Both the position numbers and the translations under genes were made by a program. 64,000 bases of DNA from NCBI RefSeq assembly GCF_001267925.1, contig NZ_CP011409.1, positions 1,302,001 to 1,366,000 on the forward strand, read 5' to 3'. Source of the DNA: Herbaspirillum hiltneri N3 (GTDB lineage: Bacteria; Pseudomonadota; Gammaproteobacteria; Burkholderiales; Burkholderiaceae_D). The stretch's first letter is position 1, and each line of letters opens with the position of its first letter. Under the pieces are notes generated by a model, which did no database searches, was not told the DNA's origin, and saw only the letters and a list, made by a program, of their open reading frames with translations. This document shows positions 39,630-50,799 of this stretch, in pieces.

Positions 39630-40871
39630 ATGAAGCCACCCCTCCACAAAAACGCCTTCCTGCAGATGGTCGTCGCCATCGCCATCGGCATCGCGCTCGG
39701 TCATGCCGATCCACAGCTGGCGGTGCAGATGAAACCGCTCAGCGATGGCTTCGTGCGCCTGATCGGCATGCTGATCGGCGTGGTCATGTTCGCGCTGGTG
39801 GTGTCGGGCATCGCCGGCATGCAGGACAAGATGCACGCTGCCAAGGTGGGCGGCAAGGCCATTGTCTATTTTGAAATCATGACCTTCATCTCGCTCGGCT
39901 TCGGCATGCTCGCCGCCGACCTGCTGCAACCGGGAGCCGGCTCCAAACTCGATCTGTCGCACGTCTCAGACGGCGCGCATTATGCGGCGCGACTGTCGAC
40001 TTCGGGCGTGACGGATTTCCTGCTCAACATCATTCCCAACAGCTTCTTCGAGGCCTTCACGCGCAACAGTAGCCTGCAGATCCTGTTGCTGGCGGTGCTG
40101 TTCGGCGTTGCATTGTCGCGGCTGGGCGAACGTGGCCGCAGCCTGCTCAATTTCATCGAAGCCAATCTGCGCATCCTGTTCGGGATGATCAACATCATCC
40201 TCAAGGTCGCGCCGCTGGCCGCCTTCGGCGCCATGGCTTATACCATCGGTCGCTACGGCGTGGCGTCGGTGCTGCCGCTGCTGCATTTCGTCGGCGCCAT
40301 CTACATCGCCAGCATCGCCTTCGTCTGCGTGGTGATGGGGCTGATCGCGCGCGTGGCGGGCGTCAACATCTTCCGCCTGATCGCTTTCATCAAGGAAGAA
40401 TTGCTGCTGGTTTTTTTCACCACCTCGTCGATGGCGGCGCTGCCCGGACTGACCGAAAAAATGGAACGCCTCGGGTGTTCGCGCGCGGTAGTGCGGCTGG
40501 TGCTGCCGACCGGCTACACCTTCAACCTCAACGGCACCAACATCTATCTCACCATGGCGGCGCTGTTCCTGGCGCAGGCCGGCGGCATCGAGGTGAGCCT
40601 GTGGCAGCAATTGTCGCTGCTGGCGATCTGCATGCTGACGTCCAAGGGCGCCACCAGCGTGACCGGCTCCGGCTTCATTGCGCTGGCGGCCACGCTCAGT
40701 ACGCTGCAGATCGTGCCTGTCGGCGGCATCGTGCTGCTGCTCGGCGTGGAACGGTTGATGAAGTGCCGCTCGCTGAGCAACGTCATCGGCAATTGCCTGG
40801 CCTGCGTGGTGGTCTGCGCGTGGGACAAGGCACTCGATCGCGAACGCATGGCACAAGCCTTGCGCGCATAA
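39630..40871 (+). CDS. Dicarboxylate/amino-acid:cation symporter (DAACS family)
   Basis: 413 residues with eight membrane helices and the two re-entrant loops of the DctA/GltP fold. HP1 reads TTSSMAALPGLTEKMERLG (Glu/Thr of the common SSES-LP is Met/Ala here); TM7 NGTNIYLTMAALFLAQA is the NMDGT-like cation site, and HP2 is SKGATSVTGSGFIALAATL. It should import C4-dicarboxylates or acidic amino acids. It converges on the TPS-lyase operon, whose last enzyme could release fumarate. A strong ribosome-binding site is not visible for the ATG. Confidence 0.9.
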   Translation: MKPPLHKNAFLQMVVAIAIGIALGHADPQLAVQMKPLSDGFVRLIGMLIGVVMFALVVSGIAGMQDKMHAAKVGGKAIVYFEIMTFISLGFGMLAADLLQPGAGSKLDLSHVSDGAHYAARLSTSGVTDFLLNIIPNSFFEAFTRNSSLQILLLAVLFGVALSRLGERGRSLLNFIEANLRILFGMINIILKVAPLAAFGAMAYTIGRYGVASVLPLLHFVGAIYIASIAFVCVVMGLIARVAGVNIFRLIAFIKEELLLVFFTTSSMAALPGLTEKMERLGCSRAVVRLVLPTGYTFNLNGTNIYLTMAALFLAQAGGIEVSLWQQLSLLAICMLTSKGATSVTGSGFIALAATLSTLQIVPVGGIVLLLGVERLMKCRSLSNVIGNCLACVVVCAWDKALDRERMAQALRA

Positions 40872-40948: not shown

Positions 40949-42475
40949 TTATTTGCCCAGCTTGTAGAACGTCTGATCCAGTCTGGCCGATGCCGCCGCC
41001 AGCTTCTGGCGCTGCTGCGCCAGCCATGCCTCATCCCTGGCCAGCTTGGTCTTTTCCACACCGAGCATGCGCTCGACCTCGGCGCGTTGCGGGCCGCCCA
41101 GTCCTTTGCTTGAGTCCAGCATGTTTTGCGCCGTCAGCGACTTCTTGTATTGCTCCTGCGTCAGTGGGAACTGGTTACGCTCGAAGTCGAACTTCTTGAC
41201 GGCTTCCGTATAGATTTGCTGCACGACGTCGAACGGAATGTCGGCCGGTTTCATCTTGTTGGTGCGGCCGTAGGTCACCAGGTCGGAGGCGAAGTGGTGA
41301 CCGACGCGGAACGGCACGTCGGAGTCGCGCTGCAGGATGTCGGCCAGCTCGGTGGTGGTCGAATAATCGGCATCGACTTCCTGCAAGGCGCGGGTCTTGT
41401 CAATCACCAGGTTGTCGAGCAGGTCGGCCAGTTTGACGAAGGCATTGGACGTCAGCTCCAGCGTTTTCTCGACCTGGTCGCGCTTGTAGTCCGGCATGCC
41501 GGGCGAGACGTTGTGCGCTTCCAGCTGGAAGGTCATGGCGCCGCCGACGATGTCGCTGGCCTGCAGGCGCAGCACGTTCAGGCCGTAGGGATTGCGCTTC
41601 TGCGGCATGATGCTGCTGGTGCCGGTCAGGCGGCCTTCCTGAATCATGATCCAGGGATAAGGCTGGTGATATTGAGTGTGGAAGTCCTGTACCAGAATGC
41701 CGATGGTCAATGCGGCGTTGCTGCACAGGCTCACCAGTTCCATGCCCTGGTCGAGCGCGCCGAGCTGCGCGGCGTCGTAGGAATTTTCAATCGGGCCGTC
41801 GAAGCCGAGCAGTTCCGCCAGGCGCTTGCGGTCGACCGGGAAGCTCGAGGTGCCCAGCGCGCCGGCGCCGAGCGGGCTCAGGTTCAGGCGCGCATAGGAC
41901 TCCTGCAGGCGTGCGCTGTCGCGTCCGAAGGCCGAGGAGAACGCCAGCAGATAGTGGGCAAACGTGGTTGGTTGCGCCTGCACGCCGTTGGTGTAGGCCG
42001 GCACGATGGTGTCGAGATTCTTCTCGGCCAACTCCAGCACTTCCGCCTTCGATTTGTTCATCGCCTCCATCAGGTCCAGCGTGCGCTCGCGCTGCATCAG
42101 GCGGCGGTTGGTCGACAGGATGTCCTGGCGGCTGCGTCCGGAGTGCATGCGCGAGCCGTCGGGGCCGGCGATGGCGAGGATCAGCGGTTCGTATTGCAGG
42201 TAGTCGGATGGACGCTTGGCGCCGGGTTGGTCGCCGTTCCTGATGACCTGGTCAACGGCCGAGACGATCTTCTTGCCCAGCTCGGGCGGCACGATCTTGT
42301 TCTCGATCACCATCACCGTCGACGCCTTGTTCATCTCGCCGAGGAAGTAAAAGTAATCGTGGTAGGGCGGCTTGTTGCCGGCGGGAGCAGCGTAGGCGGC
42401 GTTGGCTAGCGTCATTGCGGCCAGCGGCAGCAGCGCGAGGGCGGCGATGCGCCGGGAAAGGGGTTTATTGAGCAT
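40949..42475 (-). CDS. Exported argininosuccinate-lyase-like enzyme (fumarase/aspartase superfamily)
   Basis: 508 residues. A signal peptide (LSRRIAALALLPLAAMTLA, cleavage near AYA-AP, ~29) is unexpected: argininosuccinate lyases are cytoplasmic. The body aligns with ASL throughout: MHSGRSRQD (residues 110-118; ASL HTGRSRND), NLSPLGAGALGTSSFPVDR, LLGFDGPIENS, and the catalytic-Ser loop GTSSIMPQKRNP (285-296). In the YTHLQxAQP motif the catalytic-site His is Asn163 (AYTNGVQAQP), and the substrate Asn of GRSRND is Gln117. The lyase class releases fumarate from N-succinyl compounds. The start overlaps tpsA by 11 bp. The substrate is probably not argininosuccinate. Confidence 0.85.
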   Translation of the reverse strand: MLNKPLSRRIAALALLPLAAMTLANAAYAAPAGNKPPYHDYFYFLGEMNKASTVMVIENKIVPPELGKKIVSAVDQVIRNGDQPGAKRPSDYLQYEPLILAIAGPDGSRMHSGRSRQDILSTNRRLMQRERTLDLMEAMNKSKAEVLELAEKNLDTIVPAYTNGVQAQPTTFAHYLLAFSSAFGRDSARLQESYARLNLSPLGAGALGTSSFPVDRKRLAELLGFDGPIENSYDAAQLGALDQGMELVSLCSNAALTIGILVQDFHTQYHQPYPWIMIQEGRLTGTSSIMPQKRNPYGLNVLRLQASDIVGGAMTFQLEAHNVSPGMPDYKRDQVEKTLELTSNAFVKLADLLDNLVIDKTRALQEVDADYSTTTELADILQRDSDVPFRVGHHFASDLVTYGRTNKMKPADIPFDVVQQIYTEAVKKFDFERNQFPLTQEQYKKSLTAQNMLDSSKGLGGPQRAEVERMLGVEKTKLARDEAWLAQQRQKLAAASARLDQTFYKLGK

Positions 42476-45400
42476 TGTCGGTACCTTGAGTGCTGGAGTT
42501 GGATGAGGGTGAAGATGAGTTGGCGGCCGGTTCCCCCGCCTGGCTGGCCGTGGCGACGTCGATCGTCAGGCGTTGCGCGCTTTCGTTGAACGGTGAGAAC
42601 ACGTTGCTGTTGCCGCTGGGGCGATTCCAGGCGCCGGCGGCCTGTTCGGTTTGCAGTGCGGCAGTGGCCGGCGCCGTGGTCGCATTGGTCAGCAGGTTGC
42701 TGATGCCGCGACCGAAGTTGAATATCACCACGCCGCTGCCGCTGGCGGCGAAGGTGGTGGCGTCGCCGGCTTGCAGTATCGGCGCACCGTTGGGTGCATT
42801 GACGTTGACCAGCAGCACGCCGTCGACCACCTTCAGCGAGTTGGTGCCGCCGCTGAAGCGCAGGCCGGCGGCGCCGTTGCTGCCGGCGTTGAGGGTCATG
42901 CCGGCGCTGCCGCCGGTGCTGACGGTGTTGAAGCCATTGGTGCTGCTGCCGACGAAGGCGATGCCGTCGCCGCTGCCTTTGGCGGTGCCGTTGAGTACGA
43001 TCGCACCGCTGTTCGATGAGATATTCACGCCGGCCGCCGCGCCCGAACTCGGACTGCGGATCGTGACGCCGGCGCTGCTCGACGCGCTGCCGCTGGTGCC
43101 GTCCAGTGTCAGTGTGCCGGTATTGGTCGAGATGATGGTGCTGCTGGCATTGGTCGACGGATAGATCGTGATGCCGCCGGCGTTGGTCGACGTTCCGGTC
43201 ACGGAAACCGAGCCGCTGCCGGTGGCGCGCAGCGCGTTGGCGCCGGTCAGAATGCTCACGCCGTCGCCGTAGACGCTGGAGCCGGTCACGCTCAGGGCGC
43301 CGTTCTCCACGCTCACCAGCGCGTTGCCGCTGCTGTAGAAGCTGACGCCGTCGCCCTGGTCGGCGGCGTTGCCGATCAGCGTGACGTTGCCGGAACCGGT
43401 GGTCTGGATTTTGTTGGTCACGCCGAGGATGGCGATGCCGTGATCCAGCTCGGGTACGTTGGGTGAATGGAAGTTGCCGTTGAGGGTGATGTTGCCGCCC
43501 TGTGACGAGATGTTGTTCGTCGATGCCGTACCGTTGCCGCCGAGCGCGATGGCATCGGAGGTGCCGACCGAGTCGCCGCGCAGCGTGATGTCGCCGCTGA
43601 CGGTGGTGACGTTGATGCCGGTGGCGCTGTTGGTTGAATTGAAGAAGATGCCGTAGCCGCCGAAGCTGTTGGTGCTGTTGCCGTTGATGGCGATGTTGCC
43701 GCTGGTCGCACCGATGTTGACGACGGCATTCAGCGCCGACGGTGCGATGTCGACGCCGCGTCCCGAGGCGCTGGTGCCGTTGAGGCTGATGTTGCCGGTG
43801 GCGGTCTTGATGTTGACCGCGGCATATTGACCGCCGACGTCGATCGACAACGCCTTGAACGAACCGCTCGCATTGTTGACCACGGTATTGTTGCCGGTCA
43901 GCGTAACGTTGCCGGCGGTGCTGGTGACATTGACCTGCGACCCGGCTGCCGAGGCAGAGCCGTTGCCGGATGCGATCAGCGCCAGCGCGGGCGTGGTGCC
44001 GCCGGAAGTATTGCCGGTCAGGTTGATGTCGCCGGTCGTCGAGATGCCGATCGCCGAACTCGCGCCGGTGGAATTGAGCACCGTACCGTAGCTGCCGGTA
44101 CTGCTGCCGTTGACGTTGATGGTGCCGCCCGCGGTGGCGTTGAGCGTGACCGAGCCGGTGCCGCTGGCGGCCAGGTAGACGCCGCGGCCGGCGCCGGCGA
44201 AGCCGCCGCTGTTGGCCTTGACCGTCAGGTTGCCGCTGCCGACAGTGAGCGTCTGCGATGAAGTCGCCGCTGTCGAACAGACCAGCACGCCGAAGCCTGA
44301 GCTGGCGTTGCCGCTGACGGTCAGGTTGCCTGAACCGGTGGCGGCGATGGTGTTGTTGGTGCTGAAGATGCGGGTGCCGTTGCCGCTGCCCAGCGTGGTG
44401 CCGTCGACGACGATCGAGCCGCTGCCGTTGGTGACGATGCGGCTGCCGCCGGTCACCACGAACGCATCGGTGGCGACGGAGACGTTGGCCTGGTTGGCGA
44501 CCATGTTGATGTTGCCGCCGCCGGCGTCGATGGTCGATCCGGAGATATTGATCGTGTTGCTGCTCGCCGTGAGGTTGCCGCCGTTGGTGGAGATGGTGCT
44601 GCCGGACAGCGCGATCGAACCGTTGCCGGTATTGCCGAAGTTGGCGATCAGGGAGACGTTGAGCGACTTGCCGGTGGCGTTGCTGATCACATGATTGGTC
44701 ATGTTGATGCTGCGATGTGCCTGCAAGGTCAGCGACGAATTGCCGACCGCCTTGACGTCGTCGAGCACGTTGATGTCGCCGCCGTTCGTGGGGCTGCCGG
44801 CTGCGGTGAAGACGACCACGTTGGCGCCTTCCGACAACGAGGCGTTGAGCGTCGCCGAACTCAGGGTGGAGTTGGCCGCGCCGCTCGAGGTGAAGGGGGC
44901 GGACGCCGTCATGTTGACGCTGGCGGCGCTGGTGATGTTGAGGTTGTACGGATCGATGAGCCAGTCGCCGCCCTGTCCGGATGCCGCCCCAACGTGCACC
45001 AGGCCGCTGGCCTGCAGATCATGGCCCGAGGTTTCCACCTTGCCGCCGCGTCCCGTCGCGCCGCCTGCCTGCGCGCTGATGTCGCCGTAGAAGCGCGTGC
45101 TGCCGGTCGACCACAGCACCACCGTGCCGCCGTTGCCGCTGCGGACCGCATCCGCCTTGATGGCGGCGTCGCTGCCCATGAAGACGGCGTCGGACTGATG
45201 CTCCGCGCCGCCACCCTGGTAGTTGCCGCCGACCAGCACGGTGCCGCCACCCGCATCGCCGGAGGCGTCGATACGGGTGCCGTCGAACAGGCCGACGTAC
45301 TGGCCGAGGACTTTGGCGCTGCCGCCGGTTTCACCGCTGCCGAGACCGGATACATCAAGCGTGCCGCTGTTGGCGACCACGCCGCTGTTGTCACCCGTGC

Positions 45401-46256
45401 CGCCGTCAAGCAGGATGCTGCCGTTGCGGCTCTGCAGGCTGCGCGCTTCGATCACGCCGTTGTTGTTGACCACGTTCGACAGCATCGCGTCGGTGGCGCG
45501 CGCAGTCATGATCACTGCGCCGCCGTCGGCTTGCAGCAAGCCGCTGTTGAGTACGTTGGCGTTGAGTGCGGCGTTGTTGACTTCGACGTTGATGAGGCCG
45601 TCGCCATTGAAATCGAGCGTCATCTTTTCACCGGCCGCCAGCACCACGCTGCCGAGGCGCGCGATGATGTTGCCTTCGTTGCGGACCTGGGCGCCGAGCA
45701 GGGCGACGTAACCGCCGTCGGTCGCGGTGATGTTGCCTTGATTCACGACCGAGCCGGTCGCGCCTTCCAGATCGAAGGCGTTCCTGCCGGCCATGAAGTT
45801 GGCGTCGGAAATGTTCAGCGTCGACGCCACCAGGCCGCCGACGTTGACCGATGAGCCTGCGCCGAACAGGATGCCGGACGGATTGACGAGGTAGACCTGG
45901 CCGTTGGCGTTGAGATGGCCGAAGATCTGCGAGGCGTCGCCGCTGGTGACGCGGTTCAGCGCCACCGAGGACGAACCCGGCTGGATGAAATTGACGGTTG
46001 CATTGCTGCCGATGTTGAAGGTGTTCCAGGTGGCGGCCATGCGGTCGCTGGTTTGCGTGACCGTCATGGTGGCGCCGCTCTGGCCGATGCTGCCGCTGCC
46101 GGCGGTGATCTGGCCGTTGGTCGGCAGCGCGCCTGCGTCCAGCGCATGCGCCGGCAACACCGTCAGGCCGCACCAGGCGGTCAGCACGGCGACGCAGGCC
46201 GGCTTCAGCGCCGGGTGGATTTTTTTACTGCGATTGTTTCGTGGAGCTTGTGTCAT
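42465..46256 (-). CDS. Two-partner secretion exoprotein (filamentous haemagglutinin-type TpsA)
   Basis: 1263 residues from ATG 46256. A long signal peptide with a basic extension precedes the secretion (TPS) domain (~35-270): WNTFNIGSNATVNFIQPG, ASQIFGHLNANGQVYLVNPSGILFG, and VNVGGLVASTLNIS are hallmarks. A haemagglutinin repeat region follows (GGTVVLWSTGSTRFYGDISAQAGG), then from ~500 to ~1150 a Ser/Asn/Gly/Thr-rich beta-helix built of ~35-45-residue modules (TxxGNIxLNGxS...). The last ~35 residues are Ser/Asn-rich and contain no toxin domain. Exported by the TpsB gene 8 bp upstream. Probably a surface adhesin or scaffold, small for this class. Confidence 0.9.
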   Translation of the reverse strand: MTQAPRNNRSKKIHPALKPACVAVLTAWCGLTVLPAHALDAGALPTNGQITAGSGSIGQSGATMTVTQTSDRMAATWNTFNIGSNATVNFIQPGSSSVALNRVTSGDASQIFGHLNANGQVYLVNPSGILFGAGSSVNVGGLVASTLNISDANFMAGRNAFDLEGATGSVVNQGNITATDGGYVALLGAQVRNEGNIIARLGSVVLAAGEKMTLDFNGDGLINVEVNNAALNANVLNSGLLQADGGAVIMTARATDAMLSNVVNNNGVIEARSLQSRNGSILLDGGTGDNSGVVANSGTLDVSGLGSGETGGSAKVLGQYVGLFDGTRIDASGDAGGGTVLVGGNYQGGGAEHQSDAVFMGSDAAIKADAVRSGNGGTVVLWSTGSTRFYGDISAQAGGATGRGGKVETSGHDLQASGLVHVGAASGQGGDWLIDPYNLNITSAASVNMTASAPFTSSGAANSTLSSATLNASLSEGANVVVFTAAGSPTNGGDINVLDDVKAVGNSSLTLQAHRSINMTNHVISNATGKSLNVSLIANFGNTGNGSIALSGSTISTNGGNLTASSNTINISGSTIDAGGGNINMVANQANVSVATDAFVVTGGSRIVTNGSGSIVVDGTTLGSGNGTRIFSTNNTIAATGSGNLTVSGNASSGFGVLVCSTAATSSQTLTVGSGNLTVKANSGGFAGAGRGVYLAASGTGSVTLNATAGGTINVNGSSTGSYGTVLNSTGASSAIGISTTGDINLTGNTSGGTTPALALIASGNGSASAAGSQVNVTSTAGNVTLTGNNTVVNNASGSFKALSIDVGGQYAAVNIKTATGNISLNGTSASGRGVDIAPSALNAVVNIGATSGNIAINGNSTNSFGGYGIFFNSTNSATGINVTTVSGDITLRGDSVGTSDAIALGGNGTASTNNISSQGGNITLNGNFHSPNVPELDHGIAILGVTNKIQTTGSGNVTLIGNAADQGDGVSFYSSGNALVSVENGALSVTGSSVYGDGVSILTGANALRATGSGSVSVTGTSTNAGGITIYPSTNASSTIISTNTGTLTLDGTSGSASSSAGVTIRSPSSGAAAGVNISSNSGAIVLNGTAKGSGDGIAFVGSSTNGFNTVSTGGSAGMTLNAGSNGAAGLRFSGGTNSLKVVDGVLLVNVNAPNGAPILQAGDATTFAASGSGVVIFNFGRGISNLLTNATTAPATAALQTEQAAGAWNRPSGNSNVFSPFNESAQRLTIDVATASQAGEPAANSSSPSSNSSTQGTDNAQ

Positions 46257-46264
46257 CGCATACC

Positions 46265-49200
46265 TCAGAACGTGTAGTTGAAGCCCACGCCGAGGGCGCG
46301 GATAGTGGTGCCCACGCCGGCCGACAGGCCGGTAGCGCCGAGCACGCCGGAGACGGCGTAGTTGTAGTTCGCCAATGCTTCGTTGCGCAGGATCACGTAC
46401 TGGCCGAAGAAACGCGTCTGCTTGCTGTACTTGTACGAGAAGCCGACCGCCTGCGAGGTCGCGCCCATGCCGTCGGTCGAGCACTTGACGTTGTTGCCGG
46501 CGCTGCTGCCACCAATCATGCTGCAGTCGCCTGCCAGCGCCTTGGCCGCGCTGGCGCGCAATTCGAGCGCGCCGATCTGATGCGAGATGCCGAGCATGTA
46601 CGCGCGGCGACGGTAGTTGGACAGGTCGGTCGAGGTGGTGCTGGTATTGACCACGCCGGACTCGGAATACGACAGGTCGTCGGCGATCAGCGAGATCTTG
46701 GTCTTGCCGAAATCGTAGGCGACGCCGTAGCGGAAACTGAAGTCGCTCGACGAGGTGCCGGCGGTCACGTGCGTGCTGCTGCCGACGCCGCGGGCATCGC
46801 GGCCGAGACTGGCGATGCCGAAGTAGTTGATGTGCTGTTCGGCCGCGAACACGGCGGAGAAGCCGCCGTTCTCATACGACAGGCTGCCGCCGTAGAGATA
46901 GCCGGTGTCGACATCCGAGGCAGCCTTCATGCTGTTGTTGGAGTACGCCAGCTTGAGCTGGAAGCCATAGAGTTTCGGCGACCAGTAGCCGATCAGACCG
47001 TCCTGGCGGCGGTTGAAGGCAGCGTCGTCGTTGTTGGAATTGATGGCGTCGCCGACCGGTCCGGAGTTCTTGGTGATGCTGGTGACAAAACCGGGCGAAC
47101 CGATGATGTTGTAGTGTGCGGCGCTGGTCAGGCCCTGGAACGGATCGAAGGAGGTGGTGCTCTCCTTCATCGGCGTATCCCAGCGGCCGTACATCAATGT
47201 ACCGGCCGAGGGATGGTTGAACGCCACCCCGGTGTTGCGCAGATCCTGCGAGTGGGTCCAGTCGGGTACGGCTTCGGCGCTGCGGTTGGTGTAGTTCAGC
47301 GACAGGCCCATTTCGAGCTGCCACAGGAACTTCCATTGATCGTAAAGCTGGATGCCGCTGTGCGCACCGATGTAGGAGACGTTGTCGCGCACGCGCCAGA
47401 AGCCGGGCATGTTGCGGCCATTCGGCGTGGCCAGCTTGCTCTGGTCAGCGGGCGCCGCCGGGGTGGCGCCGTCGCGGCGCACATACTCCGGCACCAGGCC
47501 GAGCGAGCCGTAGATGACGAAGGCGGTTTCCGGTTCCTCGAAATCCTCGCCCTTGCCGGTGGTGTCGGAACCGAAGGCCGAGAAGGCCTGGGGCGAACCC
47601 GACACCGAGACCCAAAGACGGCGTGCGTTGCGTTGTTCGGTGCTCGGATTGACGCCGGGCGAATAGGCCGCGGCGGCGTTGAAGACCAGGTCCTTGTTGT
47701 AGATGTTGACGCCGACGCCGTAGCCCGAGCGCGACTGATGGTTTTCGCTGGAGTCCCACGGATTCTTGTTGACGGTGACGCGGCCGGCGTCGGCGAACAG
47801 GGCGGCTTCGACCACTGAGTTGCCGAGGGTTCCAAACCGCCCGATCAGCTTGCGCAGCTCGATGCGTCCCAGCACGCCTTCGTCGCCGGCGGCTTCGCCG
47901 ACCGGATAGGCGCGCACGCCGTTGGGGCCGCCCAGGCTCATTTTTTCGGAAGCGTCGAGGTTTTTGTTGGCAAATTGCGCGCTGACCGCCGCCAGCAGCG
48001 AATAACCGCCGCCCAATTGCTGCAGGCGGCTGAAGGAAACATTGCTCTTGCTGTAATTGCCGGCCGCCCTGGATGTGATGGCGTCGAGCGCGGCGTCGTT
48101 GGCGGTTTCCTTGTCAAGCTGGCCGCGGCCATGGCGCAGGCTCCAGATGTTGTTGCCTTGCGCGCCGAGCAGATTGTCGCGCCAGTCGCCGTACAGCGTG
48201 GCGCTCCAGAAGCGCGCCGACTTGGCGACCGCGGTGGCCGCGGTGATGTCCTGGAAGTGGCGGAACTCGGCCGCCAGCGATAGGTTGACGTTGGCCTTGC
48301 GGCTGCGATACAGCGCATCGTTGACGAAGAAGCTGGAGACCTTGGCCGAGCCGCTGGCTTGCGCATCCTTGAGGTTCTTGCCGATGTTGTACTGCAGTTC
48401 GGCGACGCTGGCGCCGATCGACACGCCGCCGGCGCCGACCGGCATGGAGAAGCTGAGACCGGCGATGCGCAGGCCTTCGAAGGAGTTCTGGGTATTGATG
48501 CCGAAGCTCTCGCCCAGACCCAGCGCATCGTTGAGATTGATGTTGGCCGACAGGCGATTGGCGCCGGTGTAATAGTTGCCGTAGTTGTCGATCGACACGC
48601 GCGAGGTGATCGCGGTCATCTCGCTGATGCGGATCACGATGTCGGTCGCGCCGGCTTGCGCCGACGGCCGCAACACCGCGCGCACGGAGACGCCGGCCAG
48701 GTCGGACAGGCGCAGCAAGGCGCCTTCCAGTTCGCTCTCGCGGATGACCGTGCCCGGCTGGAGTTCGTCGAGGTAGCGCTGCAGCACCGCCGGATTCAGG
48801 CGCACGTTGTTGTCGGTGTCGGCGCTGACCTGGCCGATCACGCCTTCGCGCACGGCGATGGCGATCTGGCCGTCGCGAATTTCCTGCGCCGGAAGATAGG
48901 CGCGCGCAACGATATAGCCGCGTTCGCGATACAGGTTGGTGATTTTGGAGGCGGCGCGGCGCAGGCCGTTGAAATCCAGCTCGCGGCCGATGAATTCCTG
49001 CAGCTCGGCTTGCAGCCGGGCATCGTCGATGGCGCTGTTGCCGCTGAGCGTGAAGCCGATCACCTGGACATTGACGGCGGCCTGCGGCGCTGCTGTGGGT
49101 GTCGACGCATCGTCGGCGTCCTGGGTTTCCTTTTCGATCTGCACGCGGCCGCGCGGCTGTTCCTGCGTTTGCAGACGCTCGCGATCGGCCGGCGCGAGTT

Positions 49201-49345
49201 GCTGGCGATTGGCGTCGAAGATGCTGCCGGAACTCGGCGGCGCCGGGGTCTGCGCCTGCGCTGCCAGCGGCGCCGCTGCCAGCATGGTCATGACCTGTAG
49301 CGCCAGCATTTGCCGGCGTTGCGCGGCAAAACGTGGTTTGTTCAT
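46265..49345 (-). CDS. TpsB/FhaC-type transporter fused to a C-terminal porin
   Basis: 1026 residues; typical TpsB proteins are ~550-600. Signal peptide to ~32; POTRA domains (~92-240: VNVQVIGFTLSGNSAIDDA, FNGLRRAASKITNLYRERGYIVARAYLP); beta-barrel ~240-592 with the Omp85/ShlB motif LGGPNGVRAYPVGEAAGDEG and a last strand NARRLWVSVSG. After a short acidic linker (~593-606) a second barrel begins: FVIYGSLGLVPEYV, VSYIGAHSGIQLYDQWKFLWQLEMG, NTGVAFNHPSAGTLMYGRWDTPMK, FRYGVAYDFGKTKISL, ending in VGFNYTF with a terminal Phe, all Gram-negative porin features. The frame is continuous. It secretes the TpsA encoded 8 bp downstream. AGGGA precedes the ATG. Confidence 0.9.
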   Translation of the reverse strand: MNKPRFAAQRRQMLALQVMTMLAAAPLAAQAQTPAPPSSGSIFDANRQQLAPADRERLQTQEQPRGRVQIEKETQDADDASTPTAAPQAAVNVQVIGFTLSGNSAIDDARLQAELQEFIGRELDFNGLRRAASKITNLYRERGYIVARAYLPAQEIRDGQIAIAVREGVIGQVSADTDNNVRLNPAVLQRYLDELQPGTVIRESELEGALLRLSDLAGVSVRAVLRPSAQAGATDIVIRISEMTAITSRVSIDNYGNYYTGANRLSANINLNDALGLGESFGINTQNSFEGLRIAGLSFSMPVGAGGVSIGASVAELQYNIGKNLKDAQASGSAKVSSFFVNDALYRSRKANVNLSLAAEFRHFQDITAATAVAKSARFWSATLYGDWRDNLLGAQGNNIWSLRHGRGQLDKETANDAALDAITSRAAGNYSKSNVSFSRLQQLGGGYSLLAAVSAQFANKNLDASEKMSLGGPNGVRAYPVGEAAGDEGVLGRIELRKLIGRFGTLGNSVVEAALFADAGRVTVNKNPWDSSENHQSRSGYGVGVNIYNKDLVFNAAAAYSPGVNPSTEQRNARRLWVSVSGSPQAFSAFGSDTTGKGEDFEEPETAFVIYGSLGLVPEYVRRDGATPAAPADQSKLATPNGRNMPGFWRVRDNVSYIGAHSGIQLYDQWKFLWQLEMGLSLNYTNRSAEAVPDWTHSQDLRNTGVAFNHPSAGTLMYGRWDTPMKESTTSFDPFQGLTSAAHYNIIGSPGFVTSITKNSGPVGDAINSNNDDAAFNRRQDGLIGYWSPKLYGFQLKLAYSNNSMKAASDVDTGYLYGGSLSYENGGFSAVFAAEQHINYFGIASLGRDARGVGSSTHVTAGTSSSDFSFRYGVAYDFGKTKISLIADDLSYSESGVVNTSTTSTDLSNYRRRAYMLGISHQIGALELRASAAKALAGDCSMIGGSSAGNNVKCSTDGMGATSQAVGFSYKYSKQTRFFGQYVILRNEALANYNYAVSGVLGATGLSAGVGTTIRALGVGFNYTF

Positions 49346-49457: not shown

Positions 49458-50522
49458 TTACTTCGCCGGAAAGATTTTTTCCACGGTGATATCCGCGCCG
49501 AACAACCCGGCCGCGTCGTGGCCGACGCCCGGCACTTCGAAGTCGGGGTGGTGCACCGGGGTCTTCCATTTTTGCGCCAGGAATTGTTCGTAGCGCACGT
49601 AGTTGTCATGCCGCTCGACGCGCGTGGCGCCTTGCAGGCGTGCACCGCAGGCCTTGTCGAGGAAGCGGTGGTTGGGGTTGTTGTCCTTGCTGCCCACCAT
49701 GTAGGTGACGTCGCGCGCGGCGTAGCGTTTGAACAGCTGTTCGCCGCTGACTTTACCGTCGGCGCCAAGACCGTAGGGGATCATTTCGCCGAGGCCGTAG
49801 CGGTAGTTGTCGTAACCGGGACAGAGGATGCCGCCGGCCGGTGCGAAGCCGTTGTCGGCGGGGCGATTGTTGTCGAAGTAGAGATACGACGAGGGGCTGG
49901 AGATCACGTAACGCACCTTGATGCCGGCCTGTTTCAGTTTTTCGTCGCTGTTGTTCAGCACGGCATAGCGCTGCATCAGCTGGCCGCCGGCCGAGTGGCC
50001 GATGAAGACGATTTCTTTCAGCGCAGGGAAGCGGCCCGAGCCCAGGTAGGCGGCGATGTCGTCGAATACGCGGAACGAGCTGACGCCGGTTTTGCCATGG
50101 GTGGAATCCTGGCCCTGCATCCAGTTGTCGCCGCGCCACAAGGCCATCTTGTTGTCGGACAGGGCATCGCCTTCGGTCAGGAAGTTGGGCGTGAGCAGCA
50201 AGGTCTGCGCCGGATCGAGCCGGGCCTTGCGCAGGAATGCGAGGCCGGTTTCAAAGTAACGGTCGCCGTCGCGCTTGACGCCGTGTTCGAGGATGACGGC
50301 GCGCGTGATGGAATCGTTGTCCTGCGCCAGTGAATTATTGGCGTAGATCGCGAAAGCGTATTGCTGCGCGCCGGCGCCGAGCGTGACGATTTGTGGCGGG
50401 CCGGCTTCTTCCGTCGTTTTTTTTGCGTGAGCCACGGACGGCAGCAATAGTGAAAACGACAGCGCCGACGACATGGCGGCAGCCAGCAATGCGGTATTCC
50501 AGATTTTTGCGCCAACAGCCAT
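49458..50522 (-). CDS. Exported alpha/beta-hydrolase (serine esterase-like)
   Basis: 354 residues. A signal peptide ends near AHA-KK (~34). The nucleophile elbow FIGHSAGGQ places Ser177; acidic and His members are likely in the region of SKDNNPNHRF and VPGVGHDAAGLF near the C-terminus. It resembles uncharacterised periplasmic hydrolases rather than a named lipase. ATG 50522 is chosen over 50540 because AAGGGAAG lies 6 bp upstream. It is 112 bp upstream of tpsB on the same strand, so it is probably the first gene of the TPS-lyase operon. The 277 bp upstream include an AT-rich stretch (50710-50775) suitable for a promoter. Confidence 0.85.
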   Translation of the reverse strand: MAVGAKIWNTALLAAAMSSALSFSLLLPSVAHAKKTTEEAGPPQIVTLGAGAQQYAFAIYANNSLAQDNDSITRAVILEHGVKRDGDRYFETGLAFLRKARLDPAQTLLLTPNFLTEGDALSDNKMALWRGDNWMQGQDSTHGKTGVSSFRVFDDIAAYLGSGRFPALKEIVFIGHSAGGQLMQRYAVLNNSDEKLKQAGIKVRYVISSPSSYLYFDNNRPADNGFAPAGGILCPGYDNYRYGLGEMIPYGLGADGKVSGEQLFKRYAARDVTYMVGSKDNNPNHRFLDKACGARLQGATRVERHDNYVRYEQFLAQKWKTPVHHPDFEVPGVGHDAAGLFGADITVEKIFPAK

Positions 50523-50799
50523 GGTCAACTTCCCTTGCATCTGAACGGAGCGGAACGGCAGGGACTGCGGCTGACGGCTTACAGCGCGGGCGGGAGGCTG
50601 GCGCGGCGCAGGGCTTGAGATGCTGCGCGGTTACGGTCTCCTGCTCATGCCGCCGGTGATCGGCGCTTCATCCATCCCTGAGCATGCTTGTTCTTCTTTT
50701 GGCTCGATTATAGGAGTCGTGTTTGGCTATGTAAAATATCTCGATTTATATATTTCAATACTAAAAAAGTATGAAGTTGTACGGGACTTCCATCCGCGT

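Follow-up and report, generated by a model that had tools for sequence, protein, structure and literature searches.

The locus studied here raises the question of whether a single open reading frame of Herbaspirillum hiltneri N3 encodes two complete outer membrane barrels, a TpsB secretion pore and a general porin, and, if so, what the second barrel might do beside the first. The frame lies in a window (the whole stretch of DNA analysed) of 64,000 nucleotides. The original prediction had read it as both barrels in one polypeptide, perhaps serving to let what the secreted exoprotein captures enter the cell.

A single frame for a TpsB transporter and a porin barrel

The open-frame check revealed a frame of 1026 codons that starts at ATG 49345 and contains zero internal stops (Table 1). 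The N-terminal half matched the Pfam models POTRA_2 (residues 97-168) and ShlB (residues 232-547), both far above the Pfam cut-offs, which bore out the POTRA domains and ShlB barrel originally assigned to it. The L6 motif GVRAY is conserved in this barrel at residues 476-480, and the structure model, built from a 99-row alignment, matched residues 32-585 to TpsB transporters (FhaC/CdiB), with a predicted plug helix, POTRA domains and a 16-strand barrel as in those proteins. An earlier model from a 28-row alignment (pLDDT 64) gave, among the matches listed, porin-half ones only.

In the C-terminal half, the model predicted the general-porin features of 16 strands, a long L3 and a terminal Phe, and Phe1026 is invariant in the 28-row alignment. 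The window's own copy had no match to the Pfam porin models; among the eight C-terminal halves scanned, this one included, Porin_4 was found in six and Porin_1 in two. The porin-like character claimed for this half was upheld by its strands, its terminal Phe and a profile match to Omp32 (below). A general porin is a separate protein with its own signal peptide, and the porin half is neither: residues 560-640 around the junction contain no in-frame ATG and no second signal peptide, and the in-frame GTG codons nearby are 581, 618 and 622. The frame almost certainly encodes one chain with two barrels.

Table 1. Coordinates of the fusion gene, its parts and the neighbouring genes in the window.
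Feature	Position	Strand	Details
TpsB-porin fusion gene (P0001)	46265..49345	-	1026 aa
Probable Sec signal peptide	49250..49345	-	residues 1-32; cleavage after AQA by eye
POTRA region	48650..49063	-	residues 95-232
TpsB 16-strand barrel	47597..48610	-	residues 246-583
Linker	47531..47590	-	residues 586-605; overlaps end of SGSPQAF motif (582-588)
Porin barrel	46268..47530	-	residues 606-1026; 16 strands, terminal Phe, Omp32-like
TpsA exoprotein	42465..46256	-	1263 aa from ATG 46256; TPS secretion domain
Exported (signal peptide by eye) alpha/beta hydrolase	49458..50540	-	directly upstream of fusion
Exported (by eye) argininosuccinate-lyase-like enzyme (Lyase_1, ASL_C2)	40949..42475	-	overlaps tpsA end
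DctA-type C4-dicarboxylate symporter	39630..40871	+	convergent

Residues 589-597 of the linker had a model confidence below 50, and such very low values imply that the linker is probably flexible. A flexible linker would suit a chain that is cut there after insertion, yielding a TpsB and a porin of the ordinary kind by co-export, and the start of the porin half coincides with the position of a mature porin N-terminus. However, the W578-Y612 spacing is 29-35 residues in 59/59 fused proteins and the SGSPQAF start is conserved, which would be odd for a cleavage spacer, and we consider such processing quite improbable.

Conservation of the fusion in Burkholderiales and Pseudomonas

The search for full-length homologues with both halves, which had been proposed together with the prediction, was carried out with residues 590-1026 and returned 56 proteins, 55 of them 985-1028 aa long; ShlB was present in all 56 and a porin domain as well in 35. 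The named sources included Herbaspirillum, Polaromonas, Pseudomonas tolaasii, P. agarici, P. entomophila and P. chengduensis, and the named locus closest to the window's is that of Herbaspirillum sp. 3R11 (C-terminal half 97%). Of 34 genomes from the window's genus, 12 contain the C-terminal half (E 1e-60), always as part of a single open frame 1020-1077 codons long. Public genomes, scanned with two peptide patterns, gave at least 30 loci, by contig name in 27 genomes, or 31 with the window; all 31, from several genera, have a single frame of 1008-1061 aa. At the level of the order (300 genomes), the only frame above 850 codons among the ShlB matches listed was the window's, the next-longest having 802 and 767 codons. 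A phylum sample gave 1/398 genomes, the window's own, at E 1e-40, and is too thin for prevalence. By sequence comparison, the TpsB-porin fusion is conserved in Burkholderiales and Pseudomonas.

Two genes might have been joined by a sequencing or assembly error, and the original prediction had named a missed stop or frameshift near residue 600 as the finding that would overturn it. The single frames across the genus genomes and all public loci rule out such an artefact or frameshift, and a joining error repeated in several genera is scarcely conceivable. No gene split at the TpsB/porin junction was seen in the relatives checked. Seven shorter matches of the fused type were judged by eye to be contig-end or frameshift fragments, and three others on the short list are remote porins. 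Also by eye, P0072 and P0058, whose contigs have one and the same length, together resemble one gene broken inside the TpsB barrel, away from the junction.

Two long frames at stand-alone porins were rejected as fusions, those in G143 (1377 codons) and G250 (716 codons) being upstream read-through before a signal-peptide-bearing porin. In G092, a 724-codon frame was found around a stand-alone porin. A 6.7-kb contig labelled Bowmanella yangjiangensis (L021) carries a Pseudomonas-like copy whose C-terminal half is 61% identical to the window's; this contig may be contamination.

Selection on the two halves and origin of the fusion

Compared with its close relatives L004, L005, L006 and L027, the window's fusion had a dN/dS of 0.04-0.07 for its porin and 0.10-0.23 for its TpsB barrel; the linker gave 0-0.15 and residues 560-640 gave 0.05-0.13. 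Against the more distant L007-L011, the values were 0.08-0.27 in the porin and 0.18-1.03 or saturated in the short linker, which gave about 1 with the two Polaromonas loci L010 and L011.

Pairwise distances of the TpsB halves and of the porin halves were correlated at r = 0.97 over 59 fused proteins, the window's included, and the two halves share one history. In a tree with 62 unfused relatives (quick method), the TpsB halves of these proteins grouped as a single clade with an SH-aLRT of 100. The unfused TpsB proteins end in Phe in 59/62 cases, usually preceded by Tyr or Trp (49/62), whereas the fused proteins have Pro585 at the terminal-aromatic position in 59/59, within SGSPQAF, and the window's chain runs for 441 residues past it. 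An ordinary TpsB barrel forms the C-terminus of its chain and has an aromatic end; with Pro585 and a continuing chain, the fusion would work like a TpsB and represents an architectural variant.

Stand-alone porins in Burkholderiales are 26-33% identical to the porin half, and a profile match was obtained in 88/399 Burkholderiales genomes (E 1e-10; window's included). At 14 stand-alone porin loci, none of the other called genes matched a gene of the fusion cluster, and in most of these porins a signal-peptide-like leader is followed directly by the first porin strand. The single fused clade and the leader-bearing stand-alone porins suggest that the fusion likely arose in one event, in which the TpsB stop and the porin signal peptide were lost. 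Sequences, trees and models establish a conserved single chain of two complete barrels, forming one fusion clade in a conserved cluster, that has lost the TpsB terminal aromatic; homologues, phylogeny, selection and structure prediction strongly support the claim that a TpsB and a complete general-porin barrel share one 1026-residue frame.

Likeness of the porin half to Omp32

A profile of fused and stand-alone relatives matched Omp32 with E 7e-27, and the fused C-terminal halves alone with E 2e-5. In the structural comparison, the closest match of the modelled porin half was Omp32, an anion-selective porin solved with malate. R703 and R780 align with R75 and R133 of Omp32 (numbering counted on the profile alignment), which, with R38, presumably line the Omp32 constriction. 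By analogy, the porin half is probably an open anion-preferring channel, a reading weakened by the counterpart of R38, which is not basic in the fusion (Tyr in 38/59), and by a net charge of only +1. Compared with Omp32 of Comamonas (Delftia) acidovorans and the Burkholderiales/Neisseria general porins (Porin_4), the porin half differs in having no signal peptide of its own, in being attached to a secretion pore and in its length of ~420 instead of ~330 residues.

C941 and C955 are the sole cysteines of the fusion protein, are invariant in 59/59 fused relatives and are mostly retained in stand-alone porins; they likely form a disulfide in an outer loop.

Gene neighbourhood of the fusion

The 31 loci comprised 28 of type I and 3 of type II, the latter being second copies in Polaromonas; neighbour identities came from the representatives scanned. 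In the window, the ATG of tpsA lies 8 nt past the stop of the fusion gene, and its TPS domain was matched at E 6e-41 (Pfam). A CDI system has a toxic C-terminal domain and an immunity gene; the Pfam scan of this TpsA returned the TPS domain only, and the next gene encodes the lyase-like enzyme. The TpsA cluster was called downstream of the fusion in 30/31 loci. In L005, no single TpsA frame was called, although this locus has the hydrolase, fusion, lyase-like and DctA genes.

The hydrolase family lies directly upstream in 28/28 type I loci, and the argininosuccinate-lyase-like (ASL-like) family, with an apparent His-to-Asn change at the argininosuccinate-lyase catalytic motif, occurs in 21/28. 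Raw tallies of HMW1C, DctA and LysR (24/31, 20/31 and 13/31) included type II flanks reaching the neighbouring type I locus; with these removed, an HMW1C N-glucosyltransferase was present in 21/28 type I loci, the DctA family in 17/28 and the LysR cluster in 11/28. In Herbaspirillum, Polaromonas and some Pseudomonas, the ASL-like and DctA genes are found on the downstream side, whereas the P. chengduensis group has them upstream; the association has thus persisted through rearrangement. Three DctA-family symporters are encoded in the window's genome (4.97 Mb), one of them at this locus.

In the flanks examined, the ASL-like gene was missing from 7/28 type I loci and the DctA family from 11/28. 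A contig end cuts the flank in four of these 11 (L017, L019, L021, L029), and L015 has an apparent DctA fragment at its edge, by eye. Some of the loci lacking the ASL-like gene or the DctA family carry different transporters: a TcuC-type tricarballylate symporter in L009; a DctA/GltP-like symporter with a cysteate-racemase-family gene in L018 (L018:4840-6291), which may indicate that the substrates are acidic amino acids or sulfonates; a clustered MFS transporter and hydroxyacid dehydrogenase with an RraA-like protein in L016 and L030; and an MFS transporter in L025. The scan covered the L016 copies and the transporter of L025, and both transporters matched families below cut-offs only. No carboxylate gene was identified in the flanks of L019, L026 and L029, where one L029 gene scanned encodes a HAD-family protein.

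In three Polaromonas genomes (L010/L033, L011/L031, L012/L032), two fused TpsB-porins are encoded some 16 kb from each other. The type II copies lie between two dienelactone-hydrolase-type proteins, with a gamma-glutamyltransferase (L033 scanned), and have no ASL or DctA of their own. In L020, L022, L023, L024 and L026, a short gene (195-225 aa) that clusters with the hydrolase adjoins the lyase-like gene; its L022 copy had no Pfam match.

A possible role in carboxylate acquisition

These data led us to propose that the two-barrel TpsB-porin, together with TpsA, the periplasmic enzymes and the symporter, forms a carboxylate-acquisition device, a reading to which we assign a probability of roughly 0.5. 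The TpsB half, with its plug helix, POTRA domains and barrel, would secrete the adjacent TpsA, which at type I loci would localise a substrate source from the cell surface. The Burkholderiales-type, Omp32-like porin, deprived of its signal peptide on fusion, would form, next to the secretion pore, a diffusion channel with a preference for anions and admit carboxylate compounds, which the exported hydrolase and the ASL-like enzyme would cleave in the periplasm. From a lyase of the argininosuccinate-lyase superfamily, fumarate or an acid like it would be expected, and the product would be taken up by DctA or some other carboxylate symporter. Since the TpsB barrel has no C-terminal aromatic of its own, the terminal strand of the porin would be where BAM engages the chain, with the TpsB barrel folding second or with help.

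By fold and neighbourhood respectively, the malate-bound Omp32 match and the symporter context both suggest carboxylate uptake. The absence of ASL-like or DctA genes from some loci and the other enzymes beside the Polaromonas second copies weaken this reading, as does the dN/dS near 1 of the short linker against L010 and L011, and the odds of a role in carboxylate acquisition are about even. As to the initial idea that what the exoprotein captures could enter the cell, the entry route gained support by analogy from the anion-selective, malate-bound porin as closest structural match and from the exported catabolic-type enzymes and C4-dicarboxylate symporter in the cluster, while the coupling of capture to entry is something we infer, as are an open anion-selective channel, the substrate class and the order of assembly. 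In its boldest form, the secretion pore would be tethered to an anion channel that admits the products of TpsA's work, with the enzymes and symporter completing the path and BAM assembling both barrels from one terminal strand. We hold this capture-and-channel machine to be somewhat short of an even chance; if true, it would be a new link between protein secretion and nutrient uptake.

The two barrels might also be joined without functional coupling, as a chance fusion kept for equal stoichiometry or for the strand recognised by BAM, the porin being a general one or a mere anchor. The replacement of the terminal Phe by Pro585 accords with this, as the TpsB half may need the porin strand for assembly, and so does the lack of dicarboxylate genes at the Polaromonas second copies. 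However, an anchor would need less constraint than is seen in the porin half, which evolves more slowly than the TpsB half among close relatives, and carboxylate-handling genes recur beside the fusion in differing arrangements. We regard this explanation as unlikely, albeit less so than linker cleavage.

Alternatively, the enzymes and the porin could serve TpsA itself, in maturation, release or glycan handling, instead of nutrient uptake. In addition to the HMW1C genes at most type I loci, N-X-S/T sites exceeded shuffled sequences in 26/27 type I TpsAs (z 0.9 to 5.1; the exception is truncated), whereas the three type II TpsAs had no sequon excess (z -0.6 to 0.6). This excess is confounded by beta-helix repeats and is only a weak lead, HMW1C is missing from the window's locus and from those of four Herbaspirillum relatives and is common elsewhere in the genus (at least one match in each of 27 of the 30 other genomes searched), and DctA has no obvious role in maturation. 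Service to TpsA is, in our judgement, as improbable as cleavage of the linker. Compared with these alternatives, we prefer the carboxylate-acquisition reading.

Relation to known systems

The fusion shares the ShlB and POTRA_2 domains, predicted plug helix, L6 motif and adjacent TPS-domain TpsA of type Vb TpsB proteins (FhaC, CdiB), from which it differs by a second complete barrel and the loss of the TpsB terminal aromatic. The claim that a TpsB with a second barrel is undescribed agrees with the portions available of PMC4104836, PMC5422565 and PMC4827864, which contain no such description; PMC5422565, a two-partner secretion review from 2017, has 'porin' in its reference list only, within the available portion. 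A literature search over titles and the beginnings of abstracts, with few subscription papers covered, likewise returned no TpsB-porin. Barrel fusions as such are already catalogued: the accessible part of Reddy & Saier 2016 (PMC4827864) lists alphaproteobacterial outer-membrane fusions of two or three full barrels per chain (MnoP and others), as here, but from other porin families and, in that part, none with TpsB. The TpsB architecture with a fused porin was thus not found described in the literature searched, as far as the sources extended. Its members go by 'hemolysin secretion/activation protein', 'porin' or 'hemin-binding protein' in databases, and annotation thus hides it.

By uniting a secretion pore of the Omp85 superfamily with a diffusion porin on a single polypeptide, the fusion makes it testable how BAM handles two 16-strand barrels that apparently have one terminal signal between them and whether nutrient uptake can incorporate two-partner secretion.

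With HMW1ABC-type systems, which consist of TpsA, TpsB and the HMW1C glucosyltransferase in the part available of PMC3983070, the type I loci share the frequently adjacent HMW1C; the window differs from that description in having no HMW1C at its locus, an extra porin on its TpsB and carboxylate genes in the cluster. Its genome does encode HMW1C at C1:21704-22126 (L060, L061), far from the locus and at most 55% identical to the fusion-linked ones.
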